Source: Zarea fungicola
Lineage: Eukaryota; Ascomycota; Sordariomycetes; Hypocreales; Cordycipitaceae
Direction of reading: 5' to 3'
Length of the DNA stretch: 64,000 nucleotides
Assembly: GCA_900169235.1 (NCBI GenBank)
Contig: FWCC01000256.1
Location: 248,001 to 312,000, forward strand
A model generated the notes under the pieces. The model was not told the origin of the DNA. It ran no database searches and saw only the letters and a program-made list of their open reading frames with translations. This document shows positions 22,541-40,718 of the stretch, in pieces. Within the stretch, counting starts at the first letter, position 1. The number at the start of each line of letters is the position of its first letter. Position numbers and translations under genes: made by a program.

Positions 22541-24293
22541 TCATAAACTCTCATACAAAGACTCCAAATCCTTCCTCTTTATCCCGCCTTTTGCGTCTTT
22601 TGGGATGGGCTTCTCCGGCGTAACCATTATGACCCGCGATCTGTCGACTCGGTTATAACTCAGCCCCCCTTGCAAGCCATCTCCGGGTCGGCCAAATCTC
22701 GTCCATTGTCGCCTCGGCATTTGTGGTGCCCTGCAGCTCTACCACCAGACATGAAGCCGGCCGGCCATTTCCGACCATTGCGACGGTCTTAACCGTTGCA
22801 TGCGCGCTAATGTGCTGTTCAACCATAATGGGGTTGACATTTTGTGCAATGCTCAGACTATTGATGTCGTCAACGCAGCCAGCAAAGCGCCAGTGATGCG
22901 GCTTGTTCGCTTGTGGTGAGAAGAGGTCACCCATCCGATGCTCCTGCTTAGTCGAAAATATCTGGAATATTGCCTGCGGCCGCAAGTTCACTAAGTCGTC
23001 GCGCATAAATTACCAGCTCATACATGTCGTCCCCAAAGTGGCACCTTTCAATCCCGAGAGCTTTACTATCGATGCAGACGTATTCCCAGGTATCCGGGTC
23101 AGCGGTCTGCAGTTGGAGGAGCTGTAGTTCCGTTGCAACGTAGGCAGGCGCGATACAAACATGGTCAGCCAACTGGCTAGCTAGATTTACCGAAAGGGAG
23201 GCTATACATGTGGTGTCAGGACATTCTTCAACAAGGAGTTAGGCAGGGTTGGACCTTGTGTACCTCCGCCAGTAAAGATATTGTTAAGCCGCTTTAGCTC
23301 GGCCATGTATGTGACATTTTCGAGTGCAGGCTCCAGTCGAGATGGGAGAGTGAATGAATTCTCGCATTTGCTTTGCTAGATCCATCTCGTCATGGCCTCG
23401 GCAGGGTATTCCGGAAGGTGTAGGTGCATCGGGGTGAGAATGTAGGTGGCATTTGCATATAAAACCTGCGCGACTGAGATTGCCATACTCGCATGAAACG
23501 CAGACAGCGAAGGGAGCATTCTGCGACGGGGATGTCCCGGGGGATTACCTTGGAAACGCGGATGGACAGGTCGACCATCTAGCGCGGCAAGGGGGGTCGA
23601 AAACGAGGCTCCGAAGAGGATTTTGTTTATCCATGGAATTGCTTTCGGGTTACCAGTGACTCCAGAGATGTGAAAATACCGTGTATGGTGTCAGAAACAT
23701 TGGCCTTTTTGTGTTTGTGTGGCAAGAAGCTAACCACGGCGAGGTCCTTGCCGGCCATGTCATACGACTTCTCGGATTGAAAGCTCATAATCTTGGTCGT
23801 TTCGAGAATGAAAATTGTACTTGGAATTGAAGCGCAAGGCAAGTTACTGCATGCACGTATCAAGTCTTGAGGTGCCGCTTCTTGCGAATAGAAGAGCGCG
23901 ATGCTATTTGTCTAGTCCATAAGACTTTTGTGGCCGGCAGTGTCGTTTACTAGAGCTTAGCAAAGCAACTTTCACTCATCAGAAGACCATAGAGCTTAAT
24001 TTTGGAATAAAAAAACAAGCATACCACAATCTGAGCCCCGGAAGCTGCAAAAAGCATCAAGTAGTATCGATTATCTGGGAAGCCGGCATATGCCACTGTG
24101 CTGAACGCCTTGAATCCAAGCTCTATGCCTCTCTCCATGAGCCACCACGCCAGCCGATCCACGGCGTTGGCAAAGTCGGCAAATGTGAGAGTGAGAACAT
24201 CTTGAGCAAGGTGAGGAGGCTGTAAGAACTCGGCAAAAATTCGCAGAGGTTCGTCTCGAGCAATGTCGTCGAGGGCTGTTGTAATGAGTTTTC
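22541..24293 (-). pseudogene. Broken adenylate-forming enzyme (NRPS-like reductase A domain)
   Basis: Pieces of an ANL adenylation domain lie in the correct order but in different frames. An N-terminal part near 24000-24290 includes NAVDRLAWWL and YAGFPDNRYYLML. A core P-loop part near 23600-23670 includes TGNPKAIPWINK. A middle part near 23200-23590 includes LNNIFTGGGTQGP. A 22948-23172 part has DPDTWEYV and YELVIYAR. A 22650-22920 part has GDLFSPQANKPHHWRF and CVDDINSLS. A last part near 22545-22640 has PIPKDAKGGIKRKDLE. Damage seen: frameshifts, including near 23665 and between the last three parts, an in-frame TAG at 23376-23378, further stops of all kinds near 23190-23210, and no start codon. 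No carrier or thioester-reductase domain follows. It resembles fungal NRPS-like reductases, probably the lost core enzyme of the cluster. Confidence 0.85.
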
Positions 24294-30043: not shown

Positions 30044-32688
30044 TTAAGCCTCGATGCGCGATGGAACATCTTCCATGTCGTCCATGTCCGAAGAGGGCTG
30101 TGGGGCAGTTTTGCTACCGCTGGTCCTGCTCTTCTTGTACTTGGTAGGCGTCTTGCGTTTGCGATGAAAAGTCTCATCAAACTCATCACCGTTGGCGGTC
30201 TCAACGGGCTCCGGCACGACAGCTTCCTTGTCTACAATAATCGGCTGGGCTGCCTTCTTGGGCTTCCTGGCTGAGGGTCGTTTGCCGTTCTGCGTCCTCT
30301 TTGCCGGCATCGCCTTCTTGGCAGACTGTGGCACCTCGGTCAAGGCGGGATCAATCTGCATCTCCTGGGGCTCTTGTTGCTCAGCATCGGCGTCGCCCTC
30401 CTTCTCGTCGCCCTGCATGTCTGTCTCATCAATCTTTTCTGAGCTCACGCTGAGTCTATCCTTTGTCCCGAAGGGAACCTTTGCGACAAGGGCCCTCTCG
30501 TTGTCGTCATCAAATCCCTCCCCACCAATGTTGGGGAGCTCTCCATCTTGATCATACCTGTCCACCAAGAACTGAGCGCAGTCACGCACCGTCCTCATGT
30601 CCGCGCCAGGGACCGACAGCATCAGCCGATGCCATACGAGCTCCAGTGTCGATCGGTGCCACTTAGTGCGGAACTGTTTATCGCACAGCCTCTGCCACGG
30701 AATCTTTTCGAGGGAACCAGCTGCCGACCCGTTGATGGCGAGTACAAGGCGATACTTCTCAGTGTCGGGCATTGCCTCGAGCTGGCGACGCGCCTTCTCG
30801 AGACGGAATGGAATGGCCGAGTTGGCTTCCGCTGAGGCAAGCTTCTCGTTGCTGGAGAGTCGCAGGTTCATCGATTTCCACTTGGTGATGCACTGCAAGC
30901 GGCTTCTTGTGCGTCCCATGCTTTCGCTGATGTGCTGCCAGTCAATGAGTTGTTCATATGACTGCTCTAGTAGCTGACGGCTGGGGTCCTCTTCGCGCAT
31001 GCGGTCGATGGCCTTCATGGCGGTTTGAATATGCATCGTAAGACGGGCCTCCTCATCGCTGTCCCATGCTTCCTTCTTTTGCGCAGCGCCACAGACAAGA
31101 TAGTTTCGGTAACGGTCTCGGATGTCTTCTGGATGACGGTTGATTATGGGGGCAATATACGACCACTTGGGACCATGGGTGTTGATAAGACTAGCCAGTT
31201 CATTGTCCTGTTCGAGTGTCCAGGTGCCTCGGGCAACAAAGTTGTGGAACTTTTTGCGGGCGATGTTGATGACTTTTTGTCTGTGTCGATCAGGGCATTC
31301 AGCAAAGATGCGCTGCCAAAGCTGTGTGTGTGCTTCACCTGCAGCTGTTCCACCCGGGGTCTGAATCATCTATACGGGGCTTGTCAATATCTACAAAAGA
31401 AAAATGTTTACGGTCAATCAGATTGGCTTACCTCATTCACTTGGGTCTGCTCCATCTCATGTTCTGACCTGAAGCTCTCAATGGCATGAGCAATGCGAGA
31501 TAGCTCCTCGTCGCTAAACTTGCCCTGTATGTAGGTTGGTCGAACAAACGAGCCACTGTCGGCATAAGCAGCAAGATCTCTGTCCAGTTTGCGCTCACGT
31601 CTCGCTCCTTTCTTGGGAGCGGCACGCTTTGCACGTCTTTGCTTGGGTGACATGGCAGATGGTGATGGCAGGTCTCCAAAGGCGGTAAGGGATTCTTCTG
31701 GAACAGGCTGTTCAAAATATGTTGGTTTCGCCTTTTTCCGAGTGGAGCGTGCTCTTCTCGGTGTCTCTGTGGCTTCGTCGACGAATGCAGTCGTTGGTGC
31801 CTCTGTGGCTGTCGGAGGAGCATCGGCCATCTCACTGTCCTGTTGCTGTTGCGCTGCCTGCTTATTGATGTGTTCCTGCCAAGCCTCGCGCGCAACGGCT
31901 TCTACATCACGCTCCATATCGTCTGCGTCGGCACCTTCTCGGCCAGCATCATTCTGAGTGTGGTCTTGAACTTGGGCGCTACCCTCTCTAGATCGAGCCT
32001 CACGAGACTGGCTAAGCCGGCGCGCATGGGCTAATGTCGGAGACTGTTGGGGATCGGATTCTGCATTCTCTTCAGGAACACTGTCAATGGCGGAAAGCTC
32101 TGACTTGCGACGGCGTACAGAAGTCGACGTGTCAGCGGGCGTGTTTGCTGCGTCGTCATGAGACTTGCGCTTCTTGCGGCGGTCCTTGCCATCGGACGAG
32201 TCGGAGTGCTTGCGCTTCTTCTTGGATGGAGAAGCCGGTGTTGCAGGAGGTTCATTGGCGTCGTTATTGCCATTGACAGAGCTCGAGTGTCTGTTTGCAC
32301 GCCTCTGTGCTTTACTATTGCCAGATTCGTGCCTCTCCTTCCTCTTTTCACGCCGATGCTTCTTTGAGGCAGAGGCCGAGTTGTCTACAATCTGGGATGA
32401 GGCGGGAGGCGCGGCGGCATTGCTGTCAAACATTTGTAATGCACCAAAATCAGCCTCCCCGTCACTTGCCTCATAGTCGTTGAGAAGGGGTGGGAGCTCT
32501 TGCGACGCTGTCGTCATGTTGTCGTCGTCGTCGAGGTGGCCGGGGCGTTTGCGATGCTTGTTCTTGCTGCGACTGGATGATTGTACTTCGTGGAGGTCTT
32601 CGTCGGCCGGAGAGGATTGGGTTCGCACAAGGGAAAGAAGGTTTGAGGTAAAACTACGCGACTCAGCCCATCTGCTTGCAAAAGCCAT
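30044..32688 (-). CDS. Reb1/TTF-I-like Myb DNA-binding protein, 860 aa
   Basis: Two exons: 31432-32688 and 30044-31369. Intron 31370-31431 has GTAAGC to TATAG; an earlier AG would give a stop. The first 400 residues are disordered, highly charged and Lys/Arg-rich (KHRREKRKERHE, SPSKKKRKHS), with nuclear-localisation-like clusters. Two Myb/SANT repeats follow: ARGTWTLEQDNELASLI...DIRDRYRNYL near residues 466-512, and EAWDSDEEARL...TRSRLQCITKWKSM near 517-592. This order matches the Reb1/TTF-I family, which terminates RNA polymerase I transcription, arrests replication forks at rDNA and can act as a general regulatory factor. The C-terminus is again basic and disordered. Start at the ATG at 32688 (MAFASRWAESRS). 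Confidence 0.85.
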
Positions 32689-33412: not shown

Positions 33413-35283
33413 TTAATCATCCTTCTTCTCAGCCTCCTTGATCCGAACCGTAATGCCTTTGCGCCCAGCTTCAATCTCATAATGGCCACCCAGCACCAGA
33501 TCCTTGGCTACTAGCTCGCGCGTTCTGCCCAAACTCTCAATATCGGCAATGCGTTGGATCGTGAGCTCCAGATGCTTGTCGAAGCCTGGCTCATTGCAAA
33601 TTTCCTGAAAAGCACGATGCATGGGGACGCTACTCGCGCGTACATCCGCTTTGCTTGTGATGCTAAACAGATTGAGACTATCCAGCTTGCGAACAAAGTC
33701 GCACCGGGTCATGAGTTCCTGTGCAATGTGAAACGGATATGAAGGGAGCAGATGGCCCACGATAGGGTCATACGTTTTGTCCATCTCTTTTTCTTTAGCT
33801 ACCAGCGCCTGTGCGAGAACCATAGCTGCCGCCTATGTAGATGTTAGTTGTCAGTTTTTGCTGTGTTTTTGGGGGGGGGGGTTTCTGGGAGCAATTTGCC
33901 GGCCAGCATCCCGATACGAGTACTTACAGCCCATTTTTGCTGGTCCATAACATCATCGTCCATCTCCATGCCCAGAATCCAACATTGGTTCAGGAACCAC
34001 TTCTTCTCAATCTCTTTGATGGATTCACAAGTTGCAAGCATGTCTTTGCTCTTGGCCACCCGGTTCAAAAAGTTCAACCGCCCGCCAACCTGGTCGTAGA
34101 CTTGTTCCAGCTTCTCTTTGCAGACGGACTCGCCCCAGTACCGCTGGCGATATTTTTGCAGCGCGTCCACAGCTTGCTGCTTGGGCAGGTCTGTGATGGG
34201 AAGAACCTCCATTCGTGTGGCGAGCTGCTTGAGGCGCTCATAGACCCAGTAGTCGTCCGAGTTGAAGATCATGGTAACTAGGTTCGTTGCGGCCCATTGC
34301 TCGGCACGTTGTTGCAGCAGCTCGATGAGGTCACGGCCGTCGTCGTCGTCGCGAAGGAGATGCATCTGATTCACAATGACAATAAGTGGCCGCTTTCGCT
34401 TCTTGATAAGCTTCATGGCCACCTTCTCGAGCTTGTTGAGTGCTCGTTCAATGTCCAGCAGCGCAGTAGACTCTCGCGGGCCGCGCTCGCTAAAGTAACC
34501 GCCGATGTAATCCTCGTGGTACTCGTAGTTGAGCGCCTTTCCCAAGCGTAGACGGACAACTTCAAGGTCGGCGTGTGCTTCAAACATGGACACGCCATCG
34601 CCATCAATCTTACGCATCGCCTCCAGCAGCATGCTACTCTTCCCCGTGCCTTTCTCACCAATGATGAGAAAATAATGGCCAACATCGCGGCCATCGACAA
34701 TTGCGTCTATGATTCCTTGCTCAGACCGGCGTACCCACCTATCTTCTTCTGGCTCACGAGTATGCGGCAGATCCTTGCCAATGGCGGCGAGATCAAGCAC
34801 GGGGTCGCCTGGCTCGAATGCGCGAACCATTTTGCTCACCACAAGCATTTTGTAGCTCCTGTGGTATATGTAGCCAGCAGCAGCAAAACCCAGTCCCAAA
34901 ACGAGTATGGAAGCAAACGTAGTTGCCGCTGATTCTGCCATTTTGGACGCCAGTGTCGGCCCATCACTTCCATTGCCACCGTTGCCATGATCGCCACTAT
35001 GGGTGCTCTTGGCGTTGTTGCAGTCATCTGCAGCTGTCTCTGCTTTGTTCTCTGCTGGAACGGCGAGGCCACCAGTTAGTCTGCCATTGAGTTTGTGATT
35101 TGCAATATACTCGGGTATACAGCTATTCAATTCTGCGACTGCACTTTGGGAGCATTACGTACCATTTCGCTTTGCGCTTTGTGTTGAAAACGCGTGGCAT
35201 CTTGCCTTCGCATATGTGCGGGATCTCAGGGTCCTTGTTGGCACACGTGGCGCAGCCCTTGCCACGATGCGCTGTAAAATCAT
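33413..35283 (-). CDS. Mitochondrial AAA ATPase (Orc1-like AAA domain), 555 aa
   Basis: Three exons: 35163-35283, 33928-35054 and 33413-33832. Intron 1 (35055-35162, GTACGT, GACTAAC, TTCCAG) was chosen because it joins in frame to an ATG-started presequence at 35283. That presequence is Arg-rich, lacks acids and ends AKARCHAFSTQSAKRN, typical of matrix-targeting signals. A membrane segment follows (TFASILVLGLGFAAAGYIY). Then comes a P-loop ATPase with Walker A GEKGTGKSS and a hydrophobic strand LIVIVNQMHLL at the Walker B place, where the usual acidic residues come only after MHLLRDDDDG. Intron 2 (33833-33927) joins QQKWA to AAAMVLAQAL. Predicted to sit in the inner mitochondrial membrane. 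Function is unproven; it is conserved in filamentous ascomycetes as an uncharacterised protein. Confidence 0.85.
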
Positions 35284-36242: not shown

Positions 36243-39200
36243 ATGATTCAGCTTGAAGAAAACACAATGCTTCCAACTGCGCTTGAAATTGAAGACCGCT
36301 GGCTGTACCAATACCTCGACGCACTCCGCAAACTGCTGACAACAGACGACCTGGAGTATTCCACTTTACACTGCGACTTCACAAAGGAAATACAAACCAA
36401 ATTACGTGTTTTCGACCATGATGCTTCCATTCATGCATCCCTGATCAAAGAACCTCTCTCAAGCCAGGAAAAAAACACCCGCCGCTGCCCCATAAACCCC
36501 CGTCGATGTCTGCTCACGGCGACGCGCGACATATTCAGGGATCTGCTTCGGGGTGGCGGTATCGACTACAAACGTTCGATGCATGGCATTGTTCTGCTCG
36601 ATCAGGTCGAAAGACACCGTGTTGTGCTCTTCAACACAGTTCAGCGTGAGATGGCTGCCGCACTGATGGATGTTACACAGTCGTCCGTTCTGCTGGAGTT
36701 GCACAACGCCAGCACCCTGCACTACGGCCTTTTCCACATGGGTTTTCGTGCTGCCGTATGTACAGGCTACCTTTCCCTACCGGCGATTTAAGACAACTGA
36801 CAATTTTGCTTGCATTAGATCTTGATTCACTTCCTTGATCCGACTGAGAGCACGCCGGATGCGTGTATCATGGCCAAGCTGAACGCACTATTCCCACCAA
36901 TTGCCGCGGCCAATCTAGACTCAACTCTGTCGCTGGCTCCGTATACTGATGGTTTACGTGAAAACATTCGATTTTGTGTCTACGAGTATCTAATGCGTGG
37001 CAATACTGGCGACGTGGCAAATTGGCGTGCGTTGAAGGCGCGGCTGTATTCGTGGTGCAACATACCTGGTTACACCGAAGCCAGAGACGCTATCATGCGT
37101 TACACCGAGGAATTTAAAAAGCTGGAATTACTCTGCCTCTCTACACTACACTCACTCGAAGCTCGAAGGCAGAAAGTGCACATACCAGAATCTTTGCAAG
37201 GCAGCACGTTCGTCATTAGCTCATCCTTAACTAGCATCGCACCGTCTCCAAGTTCGTCATTTTTCGGAAGCGACATGTCTGACTTCGACTCTTCCTTCCA
37301 GACTCACCATCACTCACTCAGTTCTGTGAAATCGCACTCGCCCTCTACAAATTACAACCTGCAGTCCTCCCCGCTGCTGAGAGGCATGCCTGGCAGAGAA
37401 ATATCAGCAGCCAAAACAGATGGCGCCGCCTTCGCTGGAGAGGTCGACGCCGTGCCCATTCTGGCGTACCCAAATGATCTATCCCAGATCGAATTCGATC
37501 AACATCCTCTCACAAAGTATCTGGATATGTCGCCCCGCGAAAAGATCCAGCTGGGCCTTGTCATCCCAAAACAGCTCCCTAGTCGCGATTTTTAGTACAA
37601 TTTTGACTCAGAGGATGAAATGGAAGAGGATGTGGCAGAGATATCTAAGCCGATCAAGGATAATAGCAAGAGCCGTCGCTTTGGTAGAAAAGGTTCTGAC
37701 ACGCGAGCACCTCCAGTGCTGCTGTTGCCTCCTATACCCGAATCACTGAATACGAGTGCGACTTTGAGTAATTTTGGGAGAATTGTGAGGCATATACGGT
37801 CAAAATCTACTCTTGCACCACAAGCAACCGAAGCCACATTCGCAGCTGTGGATGCAGCTTTGAGCGCAAAGACTCCACGCAAGCTCAGGATTCCGTTCAG
37901 ACGTACAAAATCCACAATTTCTAATCCTGAGCTCCAATCTGACCCCAACCCTACGTCAATAATTGAGCTACCGAATAGCCAATTTAGCAATCCGTTTCCA
38001 TACCTCAATGCCGGCGCGAATCCACGACAGAGCGTGGCCAGTCCAACTGAGTCAGGTTACCCGAGCGCTGTTGAAACTGACATCGAACGGGCCCAATGGA
38101 CAATTGCTAAGCCTCGACTGTCGCCCATGGAGTATGCAAGAACGGTACTCATTAGATCGGCATTGTATCGGCGGGAGAGTGCTACCGCGTCGGCCCCTGC
38201 CGAGTTGACCAAGCTGTGGTTTTGGACCCCTGGATGGGAAACTTTTCTTATTATACCACGAGAGCCTGTATTGGCAAGAAAGGACTCGGCCACGTCTGAG
38301 CTGCCAGCTTATGCCGACATGATTGATACACAGAAAAATATCGACACGACATTGCTACCAAGCAGCAAACGAGGACAACCGGAGGTTAACCGGAATAGCT
38401 TGCTGTCTTGCCCGCGGCTGTCATTAAACCTTGGTAGCATTGCAATGCAGCTTCCGTCAATGTTACAGCTGATAAATTTTGACGGGATTCATTCATTTCG
38501 ATCGCCATCTAATTCTACAGTTTCGACATTCCAGTCAACTTCAGAGTCATATACGCACGTGCCGGCCAACATCGCAACGGGCAATGCCTCTGGCCAAGGC
38601 TCACGAGAAGAGAGTTCTGAGAATCACATGCTCACTTTGCTAGCCGAGGGTGTTGATAATTACCCTACGTGCCAGCCAGGTACCGCTTCTGTTGCTCCTA
38701 GTGTAATCGATCCAGACGGTCCAGCCGAGCCTGATGGGGAAGCAAATCATGGGAATAGTGACACTGCAACACGAAGTACGAACACTCAATTTGAGGACGA
38801 GTCAAATTTCAGTAATTCTGAAGTTCAACAAGCAGAACCGCCACCAATGGCGCTTGGCAATCATGCGGTGCAGGGCTCACCCGCAGAATCGTGCAGCAGT
38901 ATAGACATAGCTGCACTGGCCGTTCCGCAGACTTTCGGGCTCGACCAGCAGCACCCAACCGATCTTGCATTTGCACACCAACCGCCGAGGCGGCGGATTG
39001 GCCACCGTGTAGTAGGGGGCCAGCTGGTGACAGCTGTGAGCACCAGCAGGGTCCCTCAATTAGTTGCCGGTGAGATGCGCTCTGCCGTTATGAGTATGCA
39101 TGCGCATTCAGAGAACTTTGAGTTGCCTGATGTTTCGGATGAAGAGAGAGAGTTGCGACCGCCACCCCTGTTTGTCCACAGGCAAAGGCGGAGAAGCGAA

Positions 39201-40718
39201 GGCCGCAGTTGTTTGCGGCAGCGGGATACAACGAGGAGAAATTTGTTCAGCAGCAACGACGGCGAGGATGACGTGGATGGCCTATTGCGGCATCTCGGTG
39301 ATAGTAACGGTGATGATGGTCTTCTCTCGCCGGTGTCACCAGAAGACGAAGAAGGGCTGTCGCCGTGGTCGCCGTTTTATTATTCGGACAATAACCATAT
39401 ACTGCGCGTAACCCCATCTATTCGCAGCCAAAGCTCTGCGCCAAATCTTGCGACGCCAACTTCTTCGGCGCGACGCCTTGCCATCTCCCCGCTCCGTACA
39501 CGTACACACAGAGAACAGCGTGGTGATGAGGAACATTCAGGCTTCAGTCCGCGACCGCGACAGATGGCCTCGACGCACCTACCTCTGCCAGATTCTCCCA
39601 CACTACCTGCCGTTGGACCGCAAGTAAGAATAAAACAAGGACTGTTCGGTTTATCCAACGACGCGCTCATCGGAGCGCGATTAGGCGGGCCCGGAAGGCT
39701 TCCTCTGCCACAAAAGTCGTCACCAACAAGAAGAACAGTAAAAGAGCCTAATTCAGGTCGTAGCGGTGCAGGGAAGCGGCAGGGTCGTGACAAGCCATAT
39801 CCCCTCACCCCCCGAAAGCTACGGAAGCCCAGGCCTGCGTCTAAGAAGCCTAGCGATTGCGATAGCAGCAGCTTCGCTTTGCACAAAGCCGCAAGTCACG
39901 GTGCGTTTACACTCCTGCCCAAGCTCAGCGTAAGCCGGCGCCGTTCTGGCACAGTAGCACAACAGGCCAACGAGGAACAGCAAGACTAGAACTACTGCTA
40001 CGACTATCACGACTTTCGTCATCCTCAAGTGCCATCAATTCCCAGTACAGGCACAACAGCGCTGCGCGACGAGCGTGAACCGTCCGCGCTCAAGATAGGT
40101 CAAGACACCAGTTCGTCCACGAGACTCGACGCCGCTCGTCGCGGAGCATTCTCCGCTACAAAACAGGACCCCAACTGGCTGCCACAGCCTGTACCACCGC
40201 CACAATCACCATCATCTCCCCGCTCTGACAAGAGAGCTGATGAGCAGCTGAACCATGGCGCTGGCGGTCGCGGCACCGGGGGTCGCGGCGCGGTCACGGG
40301 CGCAGGAAGTAGCCTCAGCGACTACCTACAATTAGACACCAATCATGGCTTTCCAAATGACAAATCTTACTATTCTCACCTCTCAGAGGCCAGACACAAC
40401 GTGCCGGCGCGTGGTGGATCATACAAGGGTTAGGAATCCGGCAGTATGGTCGAAAGGGGTCCTCCTCCGGGTGGTTTCCAGGGGCAATCCACCAACAGGT
40501 CTTGCATACAGGATGGCAGCACGACCGGCCAGGGTGCTGCAGCGGGGACTGGGAGCCTGGGATATCATCAACCCTGTGCAGGAATTCCAGCTACCCGGCG
40601 CTCGGCAACGACGGTAACACACGGCAGCATCAACAACAGCCTGGACAGCGGCAATTCTAGTGCCAACAAGAGGACGATTGGCACCTCAATCGGCGGCCAG
40701 ACGATCCATACCAATTGA
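36243..40718 (+). CDS. Very long gene of unknown function with three in-frame TAG codons
   Basis: Exon 1 is 36243-36755. The intron 36756-36818 (GTATGT to TTAG) joins GFRAA to ILIHFLDPTES. From 36819 one frame runs to a TGA at 40716-40718, broken only by TAG at 37593, 39987 and 40431 (codons 430, 1228 and 1376 of 1470). Only 24 nt separate the first TAG from the next in-frame ATG, followed by 789 open codons, so separate genes are unlikely. No intron with usable signals removes the first TAG. The N-terminal 260 residues look folded and helical. The rest is Ser/Pro/Arg-rich and disordered, with acidic patches (GEDDVDGLLRHL) and basic ends. I recognise no family. Readings: mRNA editing or readthrough, a young pseudogene, or sequence error. 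The true stop could be any after the first; the part beyond 40433 is the least certain. Confidence 0.7.
37581..37608 (+). promoter_or_regulatory. Predicted RNA hairpin with the first in-frame TAG in its loop
   Basis: AGTC (37581-37584) pairs with GACT (37605-37608). The helix continues through G-U, one C/U mismatch, G-U and three A-U pairs (37585-37590 with 37599-37604). This leaves an 8-nt loop TTTAGTAC that holds the stop codon at 37593-37595. Pairing was found by eye; no folding energy was computed. Confidence 0.4.
40417..40451 (+). promoter_or_regulatory. Predicted RNA hairpin around the third in-frame TAG
   Basis: GATCATAC (40417-40424) pairs with GTATGGTC (40444-40451), 8 bp with one G-U. 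The 19-nt loop contains the TAG at 40431-40433. Found by eye, not computed. Confidence 0.3.

Follow-up and report, generated by a model that had tools for sequence, protein, structure and literature searches.

A candidate A-to-I mRNA editing site at an in-frame UAG codon shared by Zarea fungicola and its relatives

Contig FWCC01000256.1 of Zarea fungicola (C370 in our numbering of the genome, which comprises 43 Mb in 456 contigs) contains a gene whose second exon is a long reading frame broken by in-frame TAG codons. It lies in a stretch that covers positions 248,001 to 312,000 of the contig (64,000 nucleotides [nt]; referred to here as the window), and its stops fall at window positions 37593 (TAG1), 39987 (TAG2), and 40431 (TAG3), upstream of a TGA at 40716. 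A preliminary description of the window proposed that the gene is translated in full through adenosine-to-inosine (A-to-I) editing of its mRNA or through a leaky UAG. Our comparison with homologous proteins indicates that TAG1 is an old stop within a conserved frame, and we favor A-to-I editing at TAG1, with a probability of about 0.7. Recoding across TAG1 by editing or readthrough, taken together, appears highly probable.

The structure of the frame was as first described. After a normal intron, exon 2 forms one frame of 1,299 codons with the three TAGs as its sole interruptions. Across this stretch, the remaining five frames contain 256 stops (129 TGA, 72 TAG, and 55 TAA), or approximately 51 per frame versus 3, and the openness of the frame is therefore not a product of chance. 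The uniform use of TAG at the three stops is no more than mildly unusual (0.28 cubed = 0.022). Beyond stop statistics, the homology of its first three segments to proteins of relatives is strong evidence for the frame. We named the segments between stops A (429 residues, including exon 1), B (797), C (147), and D (94). A DNA search of the Z. fungicola genome with the gene returned a single match, the gene itself.

Homologues were collected in three protein searches, with A alone, with B alone, and with residues 1 to 330 of exon 2 carrying X at the stops; in the search with B, only the 7,992 candidates sharing the most words were scored. The resulting 70 distinct proteins, two of which are the window's own (P0004 and P0023), are in many cases assigned by their source records to Cordyceps, Beauveria, Akanthomyces, Lecanicillium, Aphanocladium, Tolypocladium, Purpureocillium, Ophiocordyceps, Claviceps, Ustilaginoidea, Conoideocrella, Fusarium, Neonectria and relatives, and Cladobotryum, genera that we take to represent several families of the Hypocreales. 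When the proteins were sorted by their pattern at TAG1, 21 ended there, 14 lacked the upstream part, and 35 spanned the site; Fusarium, Claviceps, Ophiocordyceps, Tolypocladium, Cordyceps, and Beauveria are represented among those that end at or span it. All 21 of the aligned rows that end at this codon (20 others plus the window's own) finish in S/N-R-x-F, with R and F invariant. Among the 35 spanning proteins, 31 are gene models that skip the site and 4 read across it without a gap. Two of these four have Trp at the position of the stop, P0050 (SRDF-W-YAIDS) and P0065 (SRDV-W-YNFDS), one has Tyr (P0069, SRDF-Y-YDFDS), and one has Lys (P0053, SRDF-K-NKLDS). P0053 is an annotated gene model and may conceal an intron at the site. 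P0050 begins with residues that resemble the translation of an intron, which suggests that it derives from genomic DNA. The preliminary description had expected a stop or Trp in orthologues if TAG1 is edited, and at the protein level this expectation was largely borne out: a stop occurs at the same codon in several genera, Trp is present in half of the ungapped rows, and conservation continues beyond the stop.

A tree of 56 rows placed stop-ending proteins in both main groups, in one case with Claviceps and Ustilaginoidea and in the other with Fusarium, Tolypocladium, and Cordyceps, and placed the two Trp rows apart from each other. This tree was built by a quick method with midpoint rooting; many of its branches are weak, and P0050 sits on a long one. 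Rows that end at TAG1 and rows that skip it are intermixed (15 changes, versus 17.1 in shuffles), as they should be if a single state had received two kinds of annotation. These patterns are most simply read as an old stop at TAG1 with a few later losses, and we infer that its codon position has been retained from an early ancestor of the Hypocreales. A search for orthologous DNA in viral and genomic contig collections, with the alignment as the query, found no relative, as expected for a fungal gene.

The frame downstream of TAG1 behaves as part of the same gene. Segment B is conserved in the same genera as the upstream part, and the motif YxFDS[ED][ED], or a variant of it, directly follows the stop in 12 spanning rows, even though it lies 5' of the next ATG in the window. 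That ATG, at 37620, is within 24 nt of TAG1 and opens the 789-codon open reading frame (ORF) P0023, as had been reported. In the 12 alignable spanning rows with the DS motif, the residue facing it is Met only once (P0062); the other rows have V, V, A, A, L, L, P, T, E, K, and S. With the ATG matched in 1 of 12 rows and with conserved residues directly behind the stop, we consider a distinct second gene unlikely, in agreement with the preliminary description. In four cases, an upstream ORF ending at the stop and a downstream ORF were found on contigs of equal size: P0001/P0036 (38959), P0006/P0026 (19125), P0008/P0025 (21238), and P0020/P0046 (9249).

Premature-stop-correction (PSC) editing, which converts UAG to UGG, is known from sexual tissue of Fusarium and Neurospora, where Tad2-Tad3 acts with Ame1 (PMC11156358; PMC12754623). 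At the conserved PSC site of CHE1 in Fusarium graminearum (Zou et al. 2024), it has led to three kinds of annotation error: a stop placed at the site, a start placed at a later Met, and a false small intron (PMC11169179). In PUK1, likewise, a predicted intron annotated to dodge stops proved to be false (PMC7306014). All three of the CHE1-type errors occur at TAG1 in the present family. The comparative pattern at TAG1 thus matches the published annotation footprint of PSC editing, which supports editing here. The nucleotide context also agrees: TAG1 has U at -1, G at +1, and A at +3, features listed as preferred at editing sites in a review (PMC11156358). A hairpin is predicted around each of the three TAGs, with the UAG in its loop, which for TAG1 is 8 nt long. 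We abandoned this hairpin as a main argument after comparing it with the other UAG triplets of the mRNA; between 5 and 14% of shuffles of the TAG1 flanks give a loop at least as stable.

The genome contains a second candidate for PSC editing, which came from a search for DNA methylases. The frame of an RID-like DNA methylase (L003, G000:C100:157018-160551) is open from 343 to 2619 except for a single TAG at 1600, and its Pfam methylase match runs across this codon. The A of the TAG falls within a predicted hairpin, in a loop of 3 nt, and the sole frame-keeping intron from a scan of the locus (1477-1602) would take out the FCGGGG motif at 1516-1533. A review names FgRID among the genes with PSC editing (PMC11156358). 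Nine matches to the deaminase family PF00383 are present in the genome; they were assigned at the family level, at which Tad2 and Tad3 are not distinguished. A kinase search of the genome gave 141 matches, of which 16 contained a TAG. Ten of these 16 were inspected by eye, and most of their TAGs look intronic or lie at exon borders; L008 was ambiguous.

The comparative evidence, a common stop followed by a conserved frame, would fit programmed translational readthrough as well as it fits editing. In that case, UAG1 would be decoded as an amino acid by a small share of ribosomes in every tissue, with the mRNA unchanged, and the Tyr of P0069 and the Lys of P0053 do show that the residue can vary. 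Leaky stop contexts include UGA CUA and UAG CAA UUA. The context of TAG1, UAG UAC AAU, is unlike either of these two, which do not make up a complete list. In addition, the Trp found in two of the four ungapped rows fits UGG, and editing of UAG at the sexual stage is well documented in Fusarium (PMC11156358). We therefore regard readthrough as an unlikely explanation.

Alternatively, a short intron holding TAG1, perhaps with its donor at TA/GT, might be removed from part of the transcripts. The 31 skipping models do remove the site as an intron, and five of them (P0037, P0045, P0048, P0052, and P0061) continue the exon as ..FY. With a canonical GT intron, this end is obtainable only at TA/GT, so these five genomes should read TAG-T, as deduced from protein. 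The donor GTACAA at 37595 would keep the frame with TAG acceptors at 37666 and 37687, and FgBUD14 provides a precedent in which editing is combined with alternative splicing of a stop-holding intron (PMC11156358). However, the junctions disagree between close relatives, with four different junctions in four Beauveria species and two in two records of Ophiocordyceps australis (P0061 and P0064), as expected of false introns. The skipping models lose residues around the site, and the supposed introns remove conserved residues on one or both sides. In our scan, 30 frame-keeping GT-AG pairs of 45 to 200 nt cover TAG1, none with a GTRNGT donor, and none of the seven that begin at 37595 has a branch-point match. 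Predicted introns of this kind were false in PUK1 and CHE1 (PMC7306014; PMC11169179). Alternative splicing is, on these grounds, quite improbable. Least credible is a truncated gene with a decaying remnant, or a pair of adjacent genes, in which the 429-residue protein is the sole product or the downstream part uses its own ATG: the short protein is conserved, annotations in several species treat it as complete, and an ATG stands close behind TAG1, but conservation of the downstream frame covers the same genera and includes the codons before that ATG, 11 of 12 rows have another residue there, and four homologues read both parts as one ungapped frame.

Several observations weigh against editing at TAG1. 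Tyr and Lys in two of the four ungapped rows indicate that Trp is not strictly needed, and the Trp rows P0050 and P0065 could in principle stem from RNA. The type of stop was read in the window only and deduced for five other homologues. The ATG at 37620 is present in P0062, in the window, and in P0024, the ORF of the nearest relative, which begins there. The stop itself contains a weak donor, GTACAA, for which TAG acceptors 72 and 93 nt farther along would keep the frame. Hairpin loops are weak evidence, given that 13 of 32 UAG triplets of the same mRNA also lie in such loops (with 30-nt flanks). A PUK1 orthologue was not identified among the kinase matches inspected in the genome, and "RID-like" is only a label for L003, given to it as the smaller of two methylase loci, whose TAG may or may not correspond to the FgRID editing site. 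Finally, the case is a comparative one, built from sequence. The proposal of the preliminary description thus stands in part: it has gained comparative evidence, and it falls short of proof.

If TAG1 is edited, the unedited mRNA would yield a 429-residue short form. Editing would change UAG to UIG, read as UGG (Trp), presumably through Tad2-Tad3-Ame1 in sexual tissue, and would let ribosomes continue into the conserved C-terminal part of 797 or more residues. We infer not only recoding but also its nature as editing and its stage, and likewise the tissue in which it occurs and what the two forms do. The retention of a premature stop at one codon across many genera of an order argues that the stop itself is useful, with two forms needed at different times. 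Because the site is so widely shared, lineages that keep the stop can be set against those that have lost it (to Trp, Tyr, or Lys) as a direct test of why fungi retain an editable stop when Trp could simply be fixed. For users of public databases, the gene models of this family are mostly unreliable at TAG1, as 31 of 35 spanning proteins skip the site.

TAG2 and TAG3 look recent and make weaker cases than TAG1, and the original ranking, with TAG1 strongest and TAG3 weakest, holds. P0025 and P0026 read on through both positions, with R and Q, not Trp, facing TAG3. Only P0024, the ORF of the nearest relative (83% identity), likewise ends at TAG2, which lies in a poorly aligned stretch. Segment C is clearly homologous to P0025 (BLASTP expect value [E] = 4e-7) and P0026 (E = 1e-10). 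By BLASTP alone, segment D is not significantly similar to either (E of 0.12 and 0.13); against the end of P0025, 0 of 1,000 shuffles reach its score, versus 140 of 1,000 for P0026. These two stops may be later additions that are edited or that simply trim the C terminus. We lean toward a true C-terminal shortening in this lineage, where the downstream frame has yet to decay, a reading favored by the end of P0024 at the place of TAG2, by the continued frame of P0025 and P0026, and by the residues opposite TAG3. Against it, the 241 codons of C and D contain no stop except TAG3, and the homology of C is still clear. Splicing over TAG2 is also possible from a GTGCGT donor at 39901 with frame-keeping acceptors, at the cost of part of the conserved stretch before TAG2. 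Separately, eight related proteins (P0027 to P0033 and P0036) all end shortly after VGPQ[VF][KR] (..HGSL and similar), a point past which the window (approximately 39610-39660), P0025, and P0026 continue to an SSFALHK..LLP motif that is present in other rows too. These eight relatives possibly have a second common in-frame stop.

The protein is large, probably disordered for the most part, and predicted to have a helical N-terminal domain. No Pfam family passed its cutoff in segments A to D or in six homologues, and Pfam detected no zinc finger in these segments. A subthreshold match of segment C to a cytomegalovirus family (E of 0.006, under its cutoff) was taken as chance. A sequence search of the PDB gave no informative match and did not match Poz1, and Foldseek found nothing in the PDB at E<=0.001. 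The top structural match of the modeled N-terminal domains of P0003 and the Fusarium orthologue P0013 (residues ~76 to 272), which share one alignment, was Poz1, the shelterin bridge protein of fission yeast. This resemblance is one of structure only, in predicted models of homologues, with 13 to 14% identity and a Z score in the range for which the tool issues a warning on helical bundles. It is a long shot that the UAG has been a developmental on/off switch since an early hypocrealean ancestor and that the gene also encodes a Poz1-like telomere bridge protein. Were this so, hyphae would make only the short bridge domain, and meiotic tissue would edit the stop and extend the protein by a long disordered tail, for example, to cluster telomeres at meiosis.

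Features of the gene and the evidence for each, in window coordinates
Feature	Position	Strand	Basis
Exon 1, 171 codons; opens segment A with its helical N-terminal domain	36243..36755	+	Homologues; modeled structure of homologue P0003
Phase-0 intron of 63 nt, GTATGT...TTAG	36756..36818	+	Several annotated homologues joined at the same place
Exon 2 to TAG1, 258 codons; end of segment A, tail GMPGRE..KTDGAAF..SRDF	36819..37592	+	Tail conserved
TAG1, common in-frame stop, proposed UAG-to-UIG editing site	37593..37595	+	Homologue alignment
Predicted RNA hairpin, 8-nt loop (37591-37598) containing TAG1	37581..37608	+	Fold prediction; weak evidence by null
Eight codons YNFDSEDE, TAG1 to next ATG	37596..37619	+	YxFDS[ED][ED] or variant in 12 spanning relatives
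Segment B, 797 codons; motifs LSPMEYAR..WFWTPGWE..CPRLSLNLG	37596..39986	+	Conserved downstream frame
TAG2	39987..39989	+	ORF end in nearest relative P0024 too
Segment C, 147 codons	39990..40430	+	Homologous to P0025, P0026
TAG3	40431..40433	+	R or Q aligned in P0025, P0026
Segment D, 94 codons	40434..40715	+	Weak homology, P0025 only
TGA, frame end	40716..40718	+	

Two neighboring ORFs lie on the minus strand: 33844-35154, encoding an AAA protein with a fungal C-terminal winged helix, and 30044-31369, encoding a Myb-domain protein. The region 22541-24293, which the preliminary description contrasted with the present gene as a true pseudogene, has 14 to 24 stops in every one of its six frames. 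By eye, its minus strand carries broken pieces of an enzyme-like frame.

We found no published description of this gene in the literature on editing in Cordyceps and the Hypocreales, a search that the PSC-gene supplements lay outside. The gene is not among the PSC genes named in the cited papers, whose full lists may carry it under a locus number. In the OLD-ZAO antiviral pairs of Neurospora, a premature stop is corrected from UAG to UIG (PMC12754623), and this correction is the likeness to the event proposed at TAG1. Membership of the gene in such a pair is not supported, with no match to an OTT_1508-type deaminase on contig C370 and no Pfam zinc finger in segments A to D. Elsewhere in the genome, there are at least six matches to deaminases of this type (PF14441, the family of the OLD editing enzymes), on contigs C348, C2, C108, C321, C115, and C396. 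The PSC genes PUK1, AMD1, FgRID, FgAMA1, and FgBUD14 resemble the present gene in having an in-frame UAG within an otherwise intact conserved frame, U at -1, and, as a weaker likeness, a predicted hairpin loop, and PUK1 also has false introns in its models. The present gene differs from them in that its editing is deduced from sequence and that it has no known domain or phenotype. CHE1 resembles it in the conservation of the site and in the three kinds of annotation error there; unlike CHE1, the protein has no zinc finger by Pfam, and the TAG1 site is common to more distant genera. As a candidate, the gene would add to the known PSC class a member notable for how widely its site is common.

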